A DNA stretch of 64,000 nucleotides, from contig NZ_QVMT01000005.1 in NCBI RefSeq assembly GCF_003418935.1, positions 124,279 through 188,278 of the forward strand. Reading direction: 5' to 3'. The stretch comes from Emticicia sp. C21 (GTDB lineage Bacteria; Bacteroidota; Bacteroidia; Cytophagales; Spirosomataceae). Shown one piece after another: positions 16,653 through 26,946 of the stretch. The notes below the pieces were generated by a model. The model did not search any database. It was not told where the DNA came from and was given only the letters and a program-made list of their open reading frames with translations. Numbering within the stretch: position 1 is the first letter of the stretch; the number at the start of each line of letters is the position of its first letter. A program made the translations under genes and the position numbers.

Positions 16653-16668
16653 TGTTCCACGTGGAACG
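16653..16668. promoter_or_regulatory. parS: parS-like ParB-binding site 1
   Basis: TGTTCCACGTGGAACG contains the perfect 14-bp palindrome GTTCCACGTGGAAC. It matches the well-known parS core (TGTTNCACGTGNAACA) at all but the last base. It lies 56 bp upstream of mnmG, the gene often beside oriC and parAB. Confidence 0.75.
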
Positions 16669-16683
16669 TGGAAAAATTCCACG
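16667..16683. repeat. Inverted repeat between the two parS-like sites
   Basis: CGTGGAA-AAA-TTCCACG is a perfect 7-bp inverted repeat that reuses the GTGGAA half of parS in split form. It may be a degenerate third site or an extra ParB contact. Confidence 0.5.
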
Positions 16684-16690
16684 ACCAAAA

Positions 16691-16706
16691 AGTTTCACGT
16701 GGAACC
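16691..16706. promoter_or_regulatory. parS: parS-like ParB-binding site 2
   Basis: AGTTTCACGTGGAACC carries the core GTTTCACGTGGAAC, differing from the 16-bp consensus only at the outer bases. Its centre is 38 bp from that of site 1 and its end is 18 bp before the mnmG ATG. Confidence 0.75.
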
Positions 16707-16723
16707 ATAAACAATTTTAAATA

Positions 16724-18586
16724 ATGTTTCAAGAATACGATGTTATAGTAGTAGGAGCCGGACACGCAGGATGCGAAGCAGCATCGGCCGCAGCCACTAT
16801 GGGTTCCTCGACACTATTGATAACAATGAATATGCAAACCATCGCACAGATGTCATGTAATCCGGCAATGGGTGGTGTAGCTAAAGGACAAATAGTTCGT
16901 GAAATAGACGCTTTAGGGGGTCGCTCAGGGATTATTAGTGATAAGACTATGATTCAATTCAGAATGCTGAACCGTTCTAAAGGACCAGCTATGTGGAGTC
17001 CTCGTTGCCAGAGTGATAGAATGCTTTTTGCCCAGGAGTGGAGAGATACATTGGAAAGTATTCCAAATCTGGATATCTGGCAAGATATGGCTGTGGGGAT
17101 ATTGGTAGAAGATAATAGAGTAGTGGGGGTTAAAACTTCGATGGGCGTTGAAATAAGAAGTAAATCTGTTGTACTTACTAATGGAACATTCCTGAATGGT
17201 AAGATTCATATTGGTGAAAAAACATTCGGGGGTGGTAGAACAGGAGAGAAGGCGGCTCATGGAATTACAGAACAATTAGTCGAGTTAGGGTTCGAATCCG
17301 GGAGAATGAAAACCGGAACACCGCCAAGAGTAGACGGGAGGTCGTTAGACTGGGATGAAATGGAGGAACAAAAAGGAGACGAAAATCCTGAAAAGTTTTC
17401 TTATACTGATACCCCAAAATTAGCCAAACAAAGAAGTTGCTATGTAACCTATACCAATGAGAAGGTTCACCAGGCGCTAAGAAAAGGCTTTGATAAGTCG
17501 CCTATGTTTAGTGGTAGAATAAAAGGATTAGGACCACGTTACTGTCCATCGGTAGAAGACAAAATTAATCGCTTTGCCGATAAAGACCGCCACCAGATAT
17601 TTGTAGAGCCAGAAGGATGGAATACAGTTGAAATGTATATCAACGGTTTCTCGACATCTTTACCCGAAGATGTACAATATGAAGCTTTGCGGTTAATTCC
17701 AGGTTTTAAGAACGCCAAGATGTTCAGACCAGGATATGCCATAGAATACGATTTTTTCCCTCCAACACAATTAAAATTAACATTAGAAACGCATCTGATC
17801 GAGAATCTTTTCTTTGCCGGGCAGATCAATGGAACCACAGGCTATGAAGAAGCAGCTTGTCAGGGTTTAATTGCAGGTATTAATGCGCATAATAAAGTGC
17901 AGGAAAAAGAGGCATTCATCTTAAAACGCAACGAAGCTTATATAGGTGTATTGATAGATGATTTAGTAAACAAGGGCACAGATGAACCATACCGAATGTT
18001 TACTTCAAGGGCAGAGTTTCGCACATTGTTAAGACAAGACAATGCCGATATAAGATTGACTCAAAAAGGTTATGATTTAGGCTTAGCTTCTCAAAGTCGT
18101 CTGGATAGAATGATCCAGAAAAGAGAAGAATCTGAAAAGCTAATTAAATCTTTAAAGGAAATGAAGATTTCACCAGACCAGGCTAATGGTTTTCTTGAAT
18201 CAATAGAATCGGCAGGTTTAAGAGAAAAGTCTTCTTATTATAGTATTCTGAAAAGACCTGAGATTGAGCTGGATGATATAAAGAATCTAAGCAATGAAAT
18301 AAAAACATATCTTGAGAGTTATGATGATGAAGTATTGGAACAAGCTGTAATTCATGTCAAATACGAAAGTTATATCGATAAGGAATTATTAATGGCTGAA
18401 AAGATGGCGAAGTTAGAAAATCTAAGTATTGTTCCTACTATTGATTACGATAAATTAACATCCATCTCAATAGAGGCAAGACAAAAGCTTAAAAAGCTGA
18501 AACCGCAGACATTAGGACAAGCTTCTCGAATAAGTGGCGTTTCACCTGCCGATATTTCAGTACTGATGGTACATCTCGGAAGATAA
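16724..18586 (+). CDS. mnmG: tRNA uridine-5-carboxymethylaminomethyl modification enzyme MnmG (GidA)
   Basis: With MnmE, MnmG builds the carboxymethylaminomethyl group on wobble uridine 34 of certain tRNAs, using FAD and a folate one-carbon donor. The 620-residue protein is full length: the FAD-binding [10 protein letters not shown] (11-20), the signature [23 protein letters not shown], the second family signature [14 protein letters not shown] near 370, and the C-terminal helical MnmE-binding domain ending [22 protein letters not shown]. Two parS-like sites lie directly upstream. The old name gidA reflects its frequent position next to oriC, which fits the origin candidate 5 kb downstream. 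Confidence 0.97.
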
Positions 18587-18660: not shown

Positions 18661-20292
18661 ATGTTAAAGAATAATTTATATCAAGTAGTAACATTTTTAA
18701 TCATCAGTAATTTATTATTAAGTTGCGCACAGTTCGTTCCACCAACTGGCGGAAAGCGGGATGAGGTAGCACCTAAATTAATAAAGTCCATTCCTCAGAA
18801 CAAGCAGACTAATTTTAAAGGACAACAAATAGAACTCTATTTTGATGAATTAATAGATGTTACATCTTTAAGACAAGAATTAGTAATTATTCCCGAACAG
18901 GAGGGATACTTCGATGTAAAACCCAAGTCAAATAGTGTCGTCTTAAAATTCGACAAACCCTTTAAAGATAGTACTACTTATACACTTAATTTTAAGAAAG
19001 GAGTTAAAGACCTAAACGAAAGGAATGAAGTACAAAATCTAAAACTGGCTTTCAGTACAGGAGCTAAAATCGACTCATTAGAATTATCAGGAAACGTGAA
19101 AAATTTATTCACTAATCAGCCAATCCTGGATGCACAGGTGTCTTTATATCAGGTACAGGATTCTTTAAATCTTAAAAAGACAAAACCCAATTATTTCTTA
19201 AAAACTGATTCAAGCGGCAATTTTAAGTTTGAGAATTTAAAGAAGGGAAGATATCGTCTCTATGCCTATACAGATAAAAATAATAATCTAAGATTCGATG
19301 CAAAATCAGAACTGATTGCTTTTGTAAAAGATACTATCAAACTGGATTCAAATATATCGAATATTGACTTAGCCTTATATTTGGCCAATAATGATAAACC
19401 AAAGAATCAGAAGACCTTACAAAGAGCAGAAGATTTTACAGTAATTTATGATAAGAATATCAAAACCTATGAGGTATCTTTTGTGAACCCTGCTGATAGC
19501 CTTCCTTATTCGGCTATCAGAAATGAGATAAAATTTTACAATATTCCTTTAAAGACAGATACGGTAAAAGTGAATATCACGGTAAGAGATTCCGCAGATA
19601 ATGCCTTGACACATTTGCAGAAAATAAAATTCAGAGATGCTGAAAGAAGAACTACACGTAGAACCAACCAGAAAAATTTCTCCTTTCAGACTGATCCTAA
19701 ATCAAGAGAAGCAGTAGAAAAAAATCTGATTATTGATTTATTCTTTGATACCCCAATTGTTAAGACAGACTTCAGCAAAATAAAACTCTTAAGTGATACC
19801 ATAAAAAATGAGCCATTAGATGAAAAAGCTTTTGTGTGGAACATGTTTAAAACTCAGGTAAAAATTACGAAAGCTATTTCAGCTACAAGAGAAATAAAAT
19901 TCGAATTTCAGACTGGAGCATTTATAGATATCAAAGGAGATTCAAGTCAGGCTACAACCTTAAGAAATCCGATTTTACAACCCGAAGATTATGGAATTGT
20001 TGAGGGAAGTATCGACGGAAATAAGGCGAATAAAATCGTACAATTGGTAGACGAAAATTATAAGGTTGAAGCGGAGCAAAAAACAAAAGACAATAAATTC
20101 AATTTCCTAAACGTGAAACCTGGCGCATACCTTATTCGAATAATCGTAGATAGCAATGGTAATGGCCAATGGGATTATGGAAATGTAGAGCAAGACATAG
20201 AACCTGAAAAAGTTTACTTTTCAGAAGAAGTTATTCGAGTCAAAGCTAATTTCGAATTGAGAGGACTTAAACAAAGTATTCCGGAGAAGTAG
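18661..20292 (+). CDS. Ig-like-domain lipoprotein
   Basis: The 543-residue protein begins with a signal peptide and lipobox ending LLLSC (C22). Just after it, VPPTGGKRDEVAPKL is the typical opening of a widespread Bacteroidetes lipoprotein family with a bacterial Ig-like (Big_5/SbsA-type) domain (about 40-125). A carboxypeptidase-regulatory-like beta-sandwich follows (about 135-225, with DSSGNFKFENLKKGRYRLYAY and NNNLRFD), a middle region of unknown fold, and a second similar C-terminal unit (VKPGAYLIRIIVDSNGNGQWDYG). The two DxNxNxxxD-type loops may bind calcium. It probably sits in the outer membrane; function is unknown. Confidence 0.8.
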   Translation: MLKNNLYQVVTFLIISNLLLSCAQFVPPTGGKRDEVAPKLIKSIPQNKQTNFKGQQIELYFDELIDVTSLRQELVIIPEQEGYFDVKPKSNSVVLKFDKPFKDSTTYTLNFKKGVKDLNERNEVQNLKLAFSTGAKIDSLELSGNVKNLFTNQPILDAQVSLYQVQDSLNLKKTKPNYFLKTDSSGNFKFENLKKGRYRLYAYTDKNNNLRFDAKSELIAFVKDTIKLDSNISNIDLALYLANNDKPKNQKTLQRAEDFTVIYDKNIKTYEVSFVNPADSLPYSAIRNEIKFYNIPLKTDTVKVNITVRDSADNALTHLQKIKFRDAERRTTRRTNQKNFSFQTDPKSREAVEKNLIIDLFFDTPIVKTDFSKIKLLSDTIKNEPLDEKAFVWNMFKTQVKITKAISATREIKFEFQTGAFIDIKGDSSQATTLRNPILQPEDYGIVEGSIDGNKANKIVQLVDENYKVEAEQKTKDNKFNFLNVKPGAYLIRIIVDSNGNGQWDYGNVEQDIEPEKVYFSEEVIRVKANFELRGLKQSIPEK

Positions 20293-20312
20293 GGTTTCCT
20301 ACTTCTTTTTTC
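20286..20312 (+). terminator. Rho-independent terminator overlapping the stop codon of the Ig-like lipoprotein gene
   Basis: GAAGTAGG-GTTT-CCTACTTC is followed by T7. The TAG stop codon (20290-20292) lies inside the left arm of the stem, so the last ribosome would cover part of the hairpin. Confidence 0.85.
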
Positions 20313-21300
20313 TATTCATAATTAATAGAACAGCTTCCCAGAATCATAGTATAAAAGATTAAAGAATCGTTTTATACAGTATACTACCACAAAACTCCAT
20401 GTACTTTGCTTAACGCTGAAGTTGTTTAGCATTATTTCTCTCCTTTAAAAAATGTATTACTTCTGCCGCTCCTGCATTAAATGATTTTAACGTTTGGCGG
20501 AGAGTAACACAATAGTATGATTTTACCAGAAACCTCTTCGAACACTTTGATAAAATAATCCTAAGTCAGAATTTTAGGGGGACGCTTAGCTAAAACGCCC
20601 AGTCGGGGACGCCCAGTCCTGGATAAAAATCCACAACTGGCTGCTCACAACTAGCGGTCTGCAACTAGTAGTCTACATAACAATTATTGATATGTAGAAT
20701 AAAAAAAACTTAAGCGCAATACACATGGCAGGATCATAACTGACTAAATATCTTAAAATGATGAGCCAACCTACAATTATTGGCGAACGATTAATTCTTG
20801 CCAGGGAAGCCTCACCAGTTTTTTCTTCAACTATCATAAAAAATAAAAAAGGAAGTATATGGGCTTTAGGGAATCTACCAGAACCAGGAAAGAACTGACT
20901 AATATAAAGGTAACTGGAAGTCTGTTTAAAAGATGTATTAGCTATAATTACCAACAGATAGTGTCGGAGTATTTCAAGGTACCAACCACTCACGTGGAAT
21001 CGGAAAAGGTTACCAATACGGTGGGAACCTTTTTGAATGGGGTAAAAAAGAAAGCCATTTTAAAAGAGCGATTGGCCATACATATCAGCAGGTAGTTTCA
21101 GCGTCTGTGAAAGTATCAGCAACTCAAACAGTATCAGAAAATGTAGCCAATACGGTTGATACATTTTATCTGATAACTTGTATGCTATGCATATCATAAC
21201 GGCAATAAGGCTACCAAACTAATCCACTAAAAGAGCTAAATAGAATCATTTTTTTACCAAAACCCAAAAGGTCAATTCAAAATAAAAAATATCCAAAAAA
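20293..21300. other. Gene-free stretch with degenerate repeats, left part of the putative origin region
   Basis: About 1 kb has no convincing gene. It contains a short direct repeat ACGCCCAGTC at 20595 and 20609, a TGGAT-AAAA-ATCCA inverted repeat at 20619-20632, clustered CAACTAG/CACAACT motifs to 20670, and a degenerate tandem repeat of about 134 bp whose copies cover roughly 20910-21042 and 21044-21175. Small frames at 20758-20898 (46 codons) and 20859-21095 overlap these repeats and look accidental. Some of it may be decayed coding sequence. Confidence 0.6.
20910..21175. repeat. Degenerate direct repeat, two copies about 134 bp apart
   Basis: The segment starting near 20949 (TACCAACAGATAGTGTCGG) aligns without gaps to that starting near 21083 (TATCAGCAGGTAGTTTCAG) over about 90 bp at roughly two thirds identity by eye, including a shared CCAATACGGT. 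The similarity extends leftwards through TTTAAAAGA. Read in the two matching frames, both give YQQ(I/V)VS...KV..T...SE.V.NTV.TF, but the 134-bp offset is not a multiple of three, so no single frame covers both copies. Confidence 0.55.
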
Positions 21301-21710
21301 ATCTGTTGACAAGTATGTGGACAGTATGAGGATAGTGCGCGTAGTATAGTGGAAGGGCTTGTGGAGAATTGAATAGGGCTAGTGGAAAGAATATCTACAC
21401 TGTGGAATACACCCAAAAATACCCTGATTTCCCCAATTCACACCAGGTGGATTAACGTGGAAACATACTGTGGATAGTGGATTCAAATATCAACACAAAT
21501 AATTTTTTTCAGAATGTAAATAAGTGGTATTAGAATTGATTATCAATAAAATAAGTGTGGATGAGTATACTAAAACTGTGGAAAAACAGATTATTTATGT
21601 GAATACTTGGAAAGCCATTATCCACAGATTATATTTATTCACATTTCCACAGGGCTAATAATTTAAAACAACAATAAAATATTATTAATTTTTATTTTTT
21701 TTATTAAAGC
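21301..21710. other. oriC: Candidate chromosomal replication origin (oriC): DnaA-box cluster plus AT-rich unwinding region
   Basis: Consensus DnaA boxes are TTATCCACA (21618-21626) and TTATTCACA (21635-21643). One-mismatch boxes on the opposite strand are TGTGGATAG (21469-21477), TGTGGATGA (21556-21564), TGTGGAAAA (21577-21585) and TGTGAATAC (21598-21606). Weaker TGTGG sites occur at 21316 and 21401. Directly after the two consensus boxes comes a tract of about 55 bp that is almost pure A/T (21655-21709), a likely DNA unwinding element. Proximity to mnmG and parS-like sites supports the call. The AT tract also abuts the next ATG and could serve as its promoter. Confidence 0.7.
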
Positions 21711-23510
21711 ATGAAAAGGTATCTGTTACTTGTTTTGATGATGATTGTCGGAGTAAGTCTAAAAGCTCAAGACCTTGAATTGGCCAATGAATATTTCAAA
21801 CAAGGAGAATATGAAAAAGCCAAAGAGATTTATGTAAAGTTGTCGAAAGATAAAAATACGGTCAAGCTTGTACACACCAATTATCTGCAAACACTCTACA
21901 AATTAAAAAATTGGGACGAGGCCGAAAAATTTCTGAAACGCCAGATTAAGGCTAATGAAAATCTCATTAGCTACAAGGCAGACTATGCCCTTTTGTTAGA
22001 AATGACAGGCAAACCTGACGATTCTCAAAAGGAATTCAACAATGTGATTGATTTGGCGGCCAAGTCAGACGGTACTCTTTACGAAATGCAGGACTTTCTC
22101 TATCGTAATAGTAAGACAGAGCAGGTTATTCAGTTGTTGAAAAAAGGAAGAGAAATTGCCAAAGACGATAATAAATATGCCATATTCTTCGCCAGAGCCT
22201 ATTTATACAACGGTCAGAAGGAACCGATGATTGACGAAATGTTAAAATATGGTTTGACCGAGGGTAATACAGATTACGTAAAAGCAACATTCCAGGATAA
22301 TCTGAAAACCGATGCAGAGATAGATATGCTCGAAAAGGTGCTTTACAGCAAGGTACAGAAGTTTCCGAATGAACAATACTATGCCGATATCTTAATCTGG
22401 CATTTGATTCAACAGAAAGAGTTTTACAAGGCTTTTGTACAAACCCGTGCTTTAGACAGAAGATACAAACTGGAAGGACAAAGAGTTTTTGAACTGGCTC
22501 AGACAGCTTTGGTGAATAAGGATTTTAAGAATGCTATTCAGATGTACGAATACGTGATGAAAGAGTATCCTCAAGGCCAGTATTATCCTTATGCCAGGCG
22601 TAATGCCATCTTCTGCAAAGAAGAAGTGATTAAGACCACTTATCCGGTCGATTTAGGCTCTATCAGAACGCTCATAAAAGACTACCAAAGTCTCTTTACT
22701 GACCTTGGACAAAATCAGAAAACAATGGAGGCTATGCGTAATACAGCACAGCTCTATGCATTCTACTTAAACGAAAGAGATACGGCTATTACAGTCCTTG
22801 AAAAAGCTATCAGCATTTCAGGAGCAGATAACAATTTCAGAGATAAATGTAAACTGGATTTAGGCGATATTTATATCCTGAGAAACGAACCATGGGAAGC
22901 TACTCTGCTTTATTCACAAGTAGAGAAATCGCAAAAAGAAGATATGCTCGGTCAGGAAGCTAAGTTAAAAAATGCGAAGTTGCATTATTACAATGGCGAG
23001 TTTGATTTATCAAAAGAGATTCTGGACATTCTGAAAAAAGCGACTACCCGTGAGATAGCCAATGATGCTATGCAACTAAGTTTACTGATTCAGGATAATA
23101 TTGGGTTGGATACTACAGAAGCAGCCATGCGTGAATATGCGGCTATTGACCTTTTGCTTTTTCAGAACAAAAATCAGGAAGCTTTGGCTGCCTTAGATAA
23201 CGCTTTCCAGAAGTATAAAAGTCACAGCTTAGCGGACGAAATTCTCTGGTTACGCGCCAATACCTATGTTAAAATCAATCAGCCTAATAAAGCTCTGGAC
23301 GACCTTGAACTATTGCGCAAAAACTATAACTTCGATATATTAGCTGACGATGCTTTATATCTGGAAGCTAAAATTTATCAGGAGAAATTAGGACAGAAAG
23401 ATAAAGCAATGGATTTATACCGTCAAATCCTTCAGAACTTCCCTGGAAGTATCTATAGTGCTGATGCCAGAAAAAGATTCAGAAATCTGCGAGGCGATAC
23501 AATAAACTAA
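21711..23510 (+). CDS. Exported tetratricopeptide-repeat protein
   Basis: The 599-residue protein has a signal peptide (MKRYLLLVLMMIVGVSLKAQ) and then repeated helix pairs with the TPR pattern, for example DLELANEYFKQGEYEKAKEIY, a tandem near 265-290 (ALVNKDFKNAIQMYEYVMK), and a C-terminal series ending KAMDLYRQILQNFPGSIYSADARKRFR, which resembles YbgF/BamD-type repeats. It is probably periplasmic and likely a protein-protein scaffold; partners are unknown. It begins immediately after the AT-rich end of the putative origin and is closed by a hairpin terminator. Confidence 0.8.
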   Translation: MKRYLLLVLMMIVGVSLKAQDLELANEYFKQGEYEKAKEIYVKLSKDKNTVKLVHTNYLQTLYKLKNWDEAEKFLKRQIKANENLISYKADYALLLEMTGKPDDSQKEFNNVIDLAAKSDGTLYEMQDFLYRNSKTEQVIQLLKKGREIAKDDNKYAIFFARAYLYNGQKEPMIDEMLKYGLTEGNTDYVKATFQDNLKTDAEIDMLEKVLYSKVQKFPNEQYYADILIWHLIQQKEFYKAFVQTRALDRRYKLEGQRVFELAQTALVNKDFKNAIQMYEYVMKEYPQGQYYPYARRNAIFCKEEVIKTTYPVDLGSIRTLIKDYQSLFTDLGQNQKTMEAMRNTAQLYAFYLNERDTAITVLEKAISISGADNNFRDKCKLDLGDIYILRNEPWEATLLYSQVEKSQKEDMLGQEAKLKNAKLHYYNGEFDLSKEILDILKKATTREIANDAMQLSLLIQDNIGLDTTEAAMREYAAIDLLLFQNKNQEALAALDNAFQKYKSHSLADEILWLRANTYVKINQPNKALDDLELLRKNYNFDILADDALYLEAKIYQEKLGQKDKAMDLYRQILQNFPGSIYSADARKRFRNLRGDTIN

Positions 23511-23658: not shown

Positions 23659-24933
23659 ATGAAAGGTAGGTTATTCACATTGTCCACAATGTTATGCACA
23701 TTGAGCTTCGTGGCCAATGCACAATCTGAACAGACAAGAACTTTAGGCTATAATTATTATGGTCAGCGCATTAACGAAAAGGCCATTTGTAACATGGTAA
23801 GCTTTCGTTCGAAAGAGGTAGCAGAAAAAGCAGTAGATGAGATAGTGCGCAGAAGTGGATTAAAAAGGAATTTTTATGTGATGGAGTGCCCTAATACAGA
23901 CAACTGTTTTGCCGCAGTAAACGGACAAACCCGTTTAATTGTATATGATGGAAATTTTATGAAGAAAGCTAATGATATAGCTAAAACAGACTGGGGTGCA
24001 CTAAGCATATTAGCCCATGAAATAGGACATCATTTGCAAGGACATACGATTATTGAAGGTGGTAGCGACCCGCAAAAAGAATTAGAAGCTGACGAGTTTT
24101 CAGGATTTGTGATGTACCAAATGGGTGCTTCCCTTAAAGAAGCACAGGCAGCTATCAGTAAATTAACTTCTGATTATGATGGGGGTACTCACCCGCCAAG
24201 AAGTAGACGTTTAGCCTCTATTGAAAAAGGTTATAATAATGCACAGGAATTATACCCGAATGTGAAGAAAAACGACGGAAGTACGATTACCTCTTTACCA
24301 AATAAAAAATTACCGGAAGTACAATACCCAACACAGCCACAACCTCAAACCCAACAAAGGCCTGTAATTGTGGATAATGTGGATAAAAATGTGAATAAGC
24401 CGATTGACCCTATCAGAAGGACCGATGGAAATATGAGTGGTGCACCGGAAGTTGGCAGAATTGACCCAAATGCCGGGGATAACTCAACAACTGGATCACG
24501 TAGTCCGGCATGTATTGAAGGAGATTGCGATAATGGTTTTGGTAAAATGATTAATACACGCTCGCAAGAAAGATATGAGGGTGAATGGAGAGACGGCAAA
24601 CGTGAAGGCAGAGGAGTTGAGTATTATGCTGATGGGGAAAAAAAATATGTGGGTAATTTCTTGGGTGGCAAGTATAGTGGTAATGGGACTTATTTCTACA
24701 AAAATGGGGATAAGTATGTGGGTAAGTATAAAAACGGAATGATGAATGACGAACGAGGCTATTTTATTTATAATAATAATATGCGCGTAGTGGTAAAAGT
24801 AGAAAATAATAAGAAAACTGGAAGGGCCCTGCGATTGTACCCGGATGGACGTAAAGAAGAAACGTATTTTGATAATGATGTGGAAAGAAAGACTTATCGG
24901 GATGCCAGTGGACGGATTATCAATACGTTTTAA
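23659..24933 (+). CDS. Exported M48-like zinc metalloprotease with C-terminal MORN repeats
   Basis: The signal peptide ends near FVANAQ (22). A gluzincin protease domain follows, with HEIGHH (H120, E121, H124) and the downstream glutamate in ELEADEFSGF (141-150), the arrangement of M48-type peptidases. After a Pro/Gln-rich linker (about 210-250) come three or four MORN repeats (about 304-366: YEGEWRDGKREGRG, YVGNFLGGKYSGNG, YVGKYKNGMMND). MORN repeats usually bind membranes or partner proteins. The combination of a secreted protease and MORN repeats is uncommon; substrate unknown. It is monocistronic with a strong terminator. Confidence 0.82.
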   Translation: MKGRLFTLSTMLCTLSFVANAQSEQTRTLGYNYYGQRINEKAICNMVSFRSKEVAEKAVDEIVRRSGLKRNFYVMECPNTDNCFAAVNGQTRLIVYDGNFMKKANDIAKTDWGALSILAHEIGHHLQGHTIIEGGSDPQKELEADEFSGFVMYQMGASLKEAQAAISKLTSDYDGGTHPPRSRRLASIEKGYNNAQELYPNVKKNDGSTITSLPNKKLPEVQYPTQPQPQTQQRPVIVDNVDKNVNKPIDPIRRTDGNMSGAPEVGRIDPNAGDNSTTGSRSPACIEGDCDNGFGKMINTRSQERYEGEWRDGKREGRGVEYYADGEKKYVGNFLGGKYSGNGTYFYKNGDKYVGKYKNGMMNDERGYFIYNNNMRVVVKVENNKKTGRALRLYPDGRKEETYFDNDVERKTYRDASGRIINTF

Positions 24934-25968: not shown

Positions 25969-26946
25969 ATGAGACTTATCAAGCATCCTGTATTGTGCAA
26001 TTACTACGTTACGTATCGCTGTAATGCTACGTGTAGTTTTTGTGATATATGGGAAAAGCCTTCACCCTATATTACGCTCCAGAATTTTAGAGAGAACCTT
26101 CGTGACCTAAAGAAATTAGGAGTAAAAGTTATTGACTTTACTGGAGGTGAACCTCTTCTACACCGCGAGTTAGATCTTTTGCTAGATGAAGCAAAGAAAG
26201 CAGGTATGATAACTACAGTTACTACCAATTGCCTGCTCTACCCCAAATATGCTGAGCGCTTGAAAGGAAAAATAGACATGCTTCATTTCTCTCTGGATTC
26301 TCCAGATGAAGAAGAACATAATGTTTCACGTGGCGTCAAATGCTTCGATAAAGTAATAGAATCGATTAGTATTGCTAAAGCAAATGGCGAAAGACCGGAT
26401 GTATTATTCACAGTTTTTGAACAAAATGTGGATAAGATAGAACGCGTGTGGAAAGAAATCACGCAGCCTAATGACTTGGTTTTGATACTCAATCCGGTGT
26501 TCGATTACAATAGCGTACAAACAGGAGGAAGTCTTTCTGAACAGTCGCTTAAGCAATTACAATGGTGGGGCAAACAAAAGAACGTTTATCTCAATGAAGC
26601 CTTCATTTCACTTAGACAAAACGGTGGAAATCATGTGGATAATCCCGTTTGCAAGGCCGCCTCTACTACTTTAGTTATTTCTCCAGAGAATAAATTAGTC
26701 CTCCCCTGCTATCATTTAGGTACAAAAGATTTTACTATTAACAATAATCTCTACGAATTATACCAATCAGCTGAGGTACAGGAAATTGTAGCTTTAGAAG
26801 GAAAATTGAAGGAATGTGAAGGATGTGTAATTAACTGCTATATGCAACCCTCTTTTGCCGTAGAAATCAATAAATACTTCTGGAAAGCGCTTCCTAGTAC
26901 GCTTAAGTATAATTACATTAAGAGTACCTGGAAGCAATTTATATAG
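25969..26946 (+). CDS. Radical SAM protein with SPASM-like C-terminal cysteines
   Basis: The 325-residue enzyme has the radical SAM CxxxCxxC cluster motif (C18, C22, C25), GGEP (59-62) for SAM binding, and a TIM-barrel core. Five more cysteines near the C-terminus (C228, C247, C283, C286, C290) resemble a SPASM/twitch auxiliary iron-sulfur site, as in peptide-modifying or MoaA-like enzymes. No short precursor peptide gene is evident in the flanks, so the substrate is unknown; HpnH-like lipid modification is another possibility. Linkage to accD is close but need not be functional. Confidence 0.8.
   Translation: MRLIKHPVLCNYYVTYRCNATCSFCDIWEKPSPYITLQNFRENLRDLKKLGVKVIDFTGGEPLLHRELDLLLDEAKKAGMITTVTTNCLLYPKYAERLKGKIDMLHFSLDSPDEEEHNVSRGVKCFDKVIESISIAKANGERPDVLFTVFEQNVDKIERVWKEITQPNDLVLILNPVFDYNSVQTGGSLSEQSLKQLQWWGKQKNVYLNEAFISLRQNGGNHVDNPVCKAASTTLVISPENKLVLPCYHLGTKDFTINNNLYELYQSAEVQEIVALEGKLKECEGCVINCYMQPSFAVEINKYFWKALPSTLKYNYIKSTWKQFI

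Follow-up and report, generated by a model that had tools for sequence, protein, structure and literature searches.

The E. coli-type replication origin lies between gidA and mioC (PMC10225481), and in the bipartite origins of Bacillus subtilis and Helicobacter pylori, as far as the available text of the source describes them, two zones of DnaA boxes, one of them with an A/T element, are split by a spacer gene that is usually dnaA (PMC4285127). An oriC beside mnmG (gidA) is already predicted in print for Flavobacteriaceae, where Ori-Finder placed it there in Mariniflexile (PMC11278836) and Algorimicrobium (PMC12843772) with GC-skew support; the Mariniflexile report states explicitly that the origin is not at dnaA, and in its available part a figure legend swaps the oriC and ter labels relative to the text. 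As far as the available text of these reports goes, the predictions concern single genomes of another order and come without a box map, parS sites or a conservation study. Searches of a limited literature collection found no paper on Cytophagales origins, although DoriC may hold Cytophagales predictions; in the available part of the Fibrivirga paper, oriC appears only within the name of the helicase PriA. ParB-parS complexes are described, in the text available, as acting as the centromere of the origin (PMC7022226).

Here, we describe a computational analysis of a locus in Emticicia sp. C21 (Bacteroidota, Cytophagales), carried out on a 64,000-nucleotide stretch of its genome (the window; all coordinates refer to it unless stated). 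We predict that positions 21266-21710 are very probably the oriC of the Emticicia chromosome (Table 1). An earlier note, made from the letters of this DNA, had proposed a candidate origin here, and three agreeing lines of evidence now support that reading: the conservation of a DnaA-box cluster across 29 genera, a change in the sign of the GC skew around the locus in complete relatives, and adjacent parS-like sites of the origin type. The locus combines the features of a DnaA-dependent oriC, namely a box cluster, an A/T element (by composition), a skew change, a conserved place and a genome-encoded DnaA. The site positions and their conservation, the neighbourhood skew change, the parS-like sites and the excess of boxes inside genes are computed results. 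As at the E. coli-type oriC, in the part of that description available, the predicted origin lies near mnmG; in contrast, its right-hand neighbour in Emticicia is a gene for a tetratricopeptide repeat (TPR) protein, and in those relatives where the distance was measured dnaA is separated from it by over 1 Mb.

Table 1. Features of the predicted origin region (window coordinates).
Feature	Position	Strand	Basis
Putative parS-like site TGTTCCACGTGGAACG, just upstream of mnmG	16653..16668		palindrome match, position kept in relatives
Second putative parS-like site AGTTTCACGTGGAACC	16691..16706		palindrome match, position kept in relatives
mnmG (gidA), left of the predicted origin in 29/29 loci	16724..18586	+	Pfam GIDA, synteny
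Ig-like-domain protein, left flanking gene; own copy without exact box	18661..20292	+	domain and codon-shuffle tests
Predicted oriC core, conserved block	21266..21710		alignment and family enrichment
Putative left-border element AAAAGGTCAATTCAAAATAAAAAA..	21266..21295	+	alignment; AAGGTCAAT at same place in relatives
DnaA box CTATCCACA, one mismatch to TTATNCACA	21469..21477	-	pattern match
DnaA box TCATCCACA, one mismatch to TTATNCACA	21556..21564	-	pattern match
DnaA box TTTTCCACA, one mismatch to TTATNCACA	21577..21585	-	pattern match
DnaA box GTATTCACA, one mismatch to TTATNCACA	21598..21606	-	pattern match
DnaA box TTATCCACA	21618..21626	+	pattern match
DnaA box TTATTCACA, first of tandem pair	21635..21643	+	pattern match, alignment
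Weaker DnaA box ATTTCCACA, 8 bp after preceding box	21643..21651	+	loose pattern
CTAATAA followed by an A/T tract (presumed DNA unwinding element)	21655..21710		91% A+T
TPR protein gene beside the predicted origin, spacer between two box zones	21711..23510	+	Pfam; family matches
DnaA box TTATTCACA inside TPR gene	22910..22918	+	pattern match; alone not above codon shuffles (66/500 reach count)
Array of three DnaA boxes at offsets 0, 9 and 21 (single mismatch in the middle box), first M48 codons	23671..23700	+	pattern match
Three exact DnaA boxes, offsets 0, 9, 21, inside M48 gene	24369..24398	-	pattern match
Facing pair of exact DnaA boxes inside radical-SAM gene	26404..26435		pattern match
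Exact DnaA box, same radical-SAM gene as preceding pair	26634..26642	-	pattern match

The box map of the earlier note was reproduced in full. Both consensus boxes (21618 and 21635, plus strand) and all four single-mismatch boxes on the opposite strand (21469, 21556, 21577 and 21598) are present, and further single-mismatch sites were found at 21360 and 21515. The weaker TGTGG sites, said to extend leftward to 21316, occur at 21316, 21360, 21401, 21469, 21556 and 21577 within 21251-21660, and the nearly pure A/T tract to the right is borne out by its composition; its stretch 21660-21709 has three G/C, a count as low in only 10 of 63950 such 50-mers, itself included. The cluster does lie 3 kb past the end of mnmG, which terminates at 18586 and whose product is a GidA protein by Pfam, and it closes a gene-free stretch of 1418 bp (20293-21710), given earlier as about 1.4 kb, that is the longest between open reading frames of at least 110 amino acids. 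Seven sites with at most one mismatch fall within 175 bp, against a maximum of four in 200 simulated windows (dinucleotide Markov). Over the whole window, matches to TTATNCACA at this threshold are not enriched (91 sites vs 83.4 expected), so only local and comparative tests count. Exact copies of TTATNCACA number 13 in the window, and 11 of them lie within 21.6-26.6 kb, a concentration absent from the earlier note; 11 exact boxes in 5.1 kb were reached in none of 200 simulations.

Comparative evidence came from 90 loci carrying the TPR gene, five of which (L013, L020, L194, L199 and L200) were left out for contig ends or partial or distant matches, giving a count of 85 genomes in 29 genera; NCBI places Emticicia in the Leadbetterellaceae, order Cytophagales, and "family" and "order" counts given here follow the groupings of the genome tool. 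In these genomes, 290 exact boxes fall in the 600 bp preceding the TPR gene, compared with 15 matches to the reversed control, and the kilobases farther left hold few. Within 700 bp, a count from which L230 was excluded (85 family genomes and 23 order loci), at least one exact box is found in 81 of 85 family genomes and at least two in 65, leaving four genomes without an exact upstream box. Unsupervised discovery of 8-mers, which like the TPR codon-shuffle, tandem-pair and trio tests used one genome per genus, recovered GTGGATAA in 28 of 29 genera (1.0 expected). The order sample comprised 98 genomes, 84 of which matched, and 23 loci from outside the family, taken from the best matches, were examined: 16 have at least two boxes within 700 bp, with up to 19, and seven have none. 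Three Cytophagales origins (L234, L235 and L237) carry 14-19 exact DnaA boxes per 700 bp, and in L237 the spacing is mostly 11 or 21 bp, as though the boxes shared one face of the helix.

Gene order around the cluster is also conserved. In all 29 loci mnmG shares the strand of the TPR gene and starts 3.3-5.4 kb to the left of the TPR start; the Ig-domain gene was detected between the two in 25. Of 101 family genomes, 98 contain a match to the TPR gene itself, whose nearest named relatives are those of Emticicia agri and Emticicia sp. BO119 (95%). At class level, 92 of 99 genomes yielded a match to it, in some cases a weak one, and its Pfam matches are to TPR-type or related repeats only. Many draft contigs of the family stop some 3.3-3.7 kb beyond the TPR gene, and rRNA genes were seen about 9 kb right of the predicted origin in two of six loci searched (G003 and G038), so rRNA repeats may break assemblies there.

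An alignment of nine close relatives sets the left limit of the conserved block at about 21266, where the putative border element lies. In 26 of 85 genomes, representing eight of 29 genera, AAGGTCAAT followed by an A-rich stretch stands 437-467 bp before the TPR start, and at no other place within the 900 bp preceding that start. Outside this interval the loci contain 12 more sites, and the background is 32 per 1.6 Mb of sampled stretches on both strands. The motif occurs in two of the 23 order loci, not at the place it takes in the family. Sequence to the left of this border, 20300-21262, is not part of the origin: the E. aquatilis group lacks it, and it has 104 further genome matches at 68-95% identity. 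It is a hairpin-forming dispersed repeat, with repeated units holding AAAAGGTTACC....GGGAACCTTTT, and is also found at L081 3560-3800 and L100 10050-10260. Within the core, a palindrome ATTGATTATCAAT (21535-21547) is kept in eight of nine aligned close relatives. The core palindrome ATTGATNATCAAT, likewise kept in eight of the nine, was rejected as a general element, the shorter TTGATNATCAA occurring upstream of the TPR gene in only three of 29 genera.

In the basal unwinding system (BUS, PMC8287927), it is the loading side that the right end of the core resembles. As in the available description of that system, tandem boxes are followed by a short spacer, mostly starting with G, and the first trio, 3'-[G/A]AT-5', is in register in 15 of 29 genera. 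A loose pattern, scored without a shuffle control, picked up the tandem pair in its 8-bp register in 21 of 29 genera, and [CT]TA occurs at +4 to +6 past the last box in the 15 genera just mentioned, compared with 2.2 expected. The likeness has a limit relative to that part of the BUS description, since runs of three or more trios within 16 bp are not above chance here (16 of 29 genera vs 14.8 in shuffles).

Sites resembling parS mark the same neighbourhood. The 16-bp consensus is a matter of general knowledge, and its exact core TTYCACGTGRAA occurs at three places in the 6.64-Mb genome (reversed control, one), all of them on the contig that contains the window (C29), at 108.3, 140.93 and 140.97 kb, or 37.6, 5.1 and 5.0 kb from the TPR gene. 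The latter two correspond to window positions 16655 and 16693, directly before mnmG. With at most two mismatches, the full consensus has four places in the genome, two on C29 and two on other contigs, and at three mismatches the window has five sites against 0.36 expected. Core sites are found in 25 of 29 loci of relatives, where 41 of 47 lie 22-136 bp before the mnmG start and a control palindrome has no site; 80 sampled stretches (1.6 Mb) contain a single core site, about 14 kb from the G004 locus. The likeness of these putative sites to ParB-parS centromeres consists in the palindrome TGTTTCACGTGAAACA, exact in some relatives, and its nearness to the predicted oriC.

GC skew had been named in the earlier note as a means of testing the origin. 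Because the Emticicia sp. C21 genome is in 33 contigs, it was judged on sampled stretches of relatives instead of a genome-wide curve, and the result is twofold: the sign does change around the locus, and the test did not refute the assignment, but the place of the change is resolved only to tens of kilobases. In Emticicia sp. 21SJ11W-3 (G049, one contig), the skew is positive in 10 of 11 stretches between 0 and 2.62 Mb and negative in nine of nine between 2.86 and 4.96 Mb. The stretch at 5.153-5.175 Mb is negative on both sides of the locus, which is at 5.163 Mb. With the end of the record at 5.177 Mb, the change would fall about 10-35 kb to the left, in the reading direction of the TPR gene. 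In four further relatives (G034, G048, G073 and G004), left stretches are negative in 17 of 20 cases and right stretches positive in 20 of 20; G021 has patchy skew with many sign changes. On the contig of Emticicia sp. C21, GC3 skew is weakly negative to the left and mostly positive to the right, and its cumulative curve has a broad minimum 30-75 kb to the left of the locus, reaching -201 at 72 kb and having risen only to -186 by 115 kb. Plain skew in the window is positive to either side of the cluster. When 10 kb on each side are compared, 26 of 29 loci have positive skew on the left, and the right exceeds the left in only 20, so that the skew indicates the neighbourhood and not the exact place; left-hand genes running towards the origin (DUF4175, mnmG) may pull it.

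This leftward displacement in the contig of Emticicia sp. C21 and in G049 is what one would expect if the cluster were a DnaA-binding regulatory or titration site, either datA-like or a promoter through which DnaA controls the TPR gene, with replication starting at another place in the vicinity, such as 10-75 kb to the left. The boxes do sit immediately 5' of a gene, and boxes inside genes across 5 kb resemble titration. However, no comparable box cluster shared across genera exists elsewhere in the 20-kb loci, the parS-like sites concentrate at this locus, and the positioned [CT]TA and the A/T tract come right after the core. We consider a regulatory site very unlikely, though the failure of the fine skew to pin the place makes it a little less so and takes a little from our still high confidence in oriC.

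The absence of dnaA from the vicinity, and its expected separation from the origin in this phylum, were both upheld. The single DnaA match in Emticicia sp. C21 is on contig C1, the window being on C29 of 33, and the protein is complete, with N-terminal, ATPase and HTH domains. The two loci are apart in nine of nine single-contig relatives (G004, G021, G026, G034, G045, G048, G049, G073 and G089), by 1.08-1.77 Mb the shorter way round, distances worked out by hand from the positions with the length of G026 rounded. An origin at dnaA is what automatic rotation of genome records assumes, and dnaA does fall in the first 1.1 kb of the record or contig in G073, G027, G080, G001 and G021; these five records have probably been rotated to dnaA. 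Against an origin there, G049 has negative skew on both sides of dnaA (dnaA at 3.39 Mb; stretches at 3.12, 3.38 and 3.64 Mb), and none of the exact boxes listed for Emticicia sp. C21 lies in C1:315037-392912, around dnaA at 340004. We give this placement almost no credence.

DnaA boxes extend up to 5 kb to the right of the core, within genes. In TPR homologues of 28 genera, one of the 29 representatives having been dropped as not open in frame, there are 35 boxes inside the gene compared with 5.4 under synonymous codon shuffling, a count reached in none of 500 shuffles. The M48 gene of Emticicia sp. C21 has five boxes vs 0.97 expected and its radical-SAM gene three vs 0.23 (0 of 500 shuffles each); its TPR gene, with one box, is not significant by itself, and its mnmG, accD and Ig genes have no exact box. 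Codon shuffles in other genomes gave an excess for the TPR gene (20 vs 4.1, 20 genomes), the Ig gene (8 vs 1.5, 16 genomes) and the M48 gene (4 vs 0.76, eight genomes), and none for mnmG (1 vs 1.5, 20 genomes), DUF4175 (3 vs 1.7, 17 genomes) or accD (0 vs 1.1, seven genomes); the radical-SAM gene has no box in the two other genomes where it was found. The 33-bp three-box array at 24369-24398 is kept in 21SJ11W-3 at 32 of 33 bp (97% identity), in a 21.8-kb locus in which no M48 match was found and where the only other matches at E < 0.001 are close to its two ends, beside the terminator of the TPR gene and the start of accD. Persistence of the array without its host gene suggests that boxes inside genes are kept for themselves, as DnaA-binding sites.

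These right-hand boxes suggest a bipartite-like or titrating second part, with the TPR gene and not dnaA as spacer. A second subregion of a bipartite oriC would account for the excess over synonymous shuffling in TPR homologues and in the M48 and radical-SAM genes of Emticicia sp. C21, for the array that outlives its gene, and for a peak of boxes at +1800 to +2099 (62 vs 2). As sequence, a second box subregion beyond a spacer gene is indeed present in part of the family, as in the available account of B. subtilis and H. pylori; the spacer differs, being the TPR gene in Emticicia. Yet exact boxes at 1797-2300 number at least one in 42 of 85 genomes and at least two in only 23, their position differs by genus, and the TPR gene of Emticicia sp. 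C21 adds nothing significant alone, so we put forward the bipartite arrangement tentatively. The boxes may instead titrate DnaA near the origin and so time initiation, a function that would allow them to be scattered over several genes at varying places, as they are; the 0, 9, 21 spacing of the Emticicia arrays and its gene-less persistence in 21SJ11W-3 rather suggest a defined complex. To us titration has nearly an even chance of being their role.

By analogy with known DnaA and ParB biology, binding, melting, helicase loading and segregation at the predicted oriC can be pictured as follows. DnaA from the distant dnaA gene would bind the boxes in 21316-21651, and the minus-strand boxes on the left together with the plus-strand tandem pair at 21635-21651 would build a right-facing oligomer. 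This oligomer would melt the A/T tract rightward over 21655-21710, where helicase would be loaded to set up two forks. The new origins would afterwards be separated by ParB acting on the parS pair at 16653-16706. The outer boxes at 22.9-26.6 kb would be a DnaA-binding part that either aids assembly or holds DnaA back. On a wider and more doubtful view, the origin may be an extended, family-wide structure, with parS before mnmG, a core with its left-border element and a codon-embedded second box part, bipartite with a TPR spacer and with the initiator gene about half-way down a replication arm.

The module parS - mnmG - oriC - TPR as a family-wide arrangement, the boxes kept within codons and the border element may be new. 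The codon-embedded binding sites and the border motif are directly testable. The prediction gives oriC a position in a group some of whose records begin with dnaA, very probably the wrong place here. That position matters for the choice of start points, for replication-rate (peak-to-trough) estimates and for studies of gene dosage. With dnaA 1.08-1.77 Mb from the predicted origin, dosage of the initiator gene would not track the origin closely in these bacteria.
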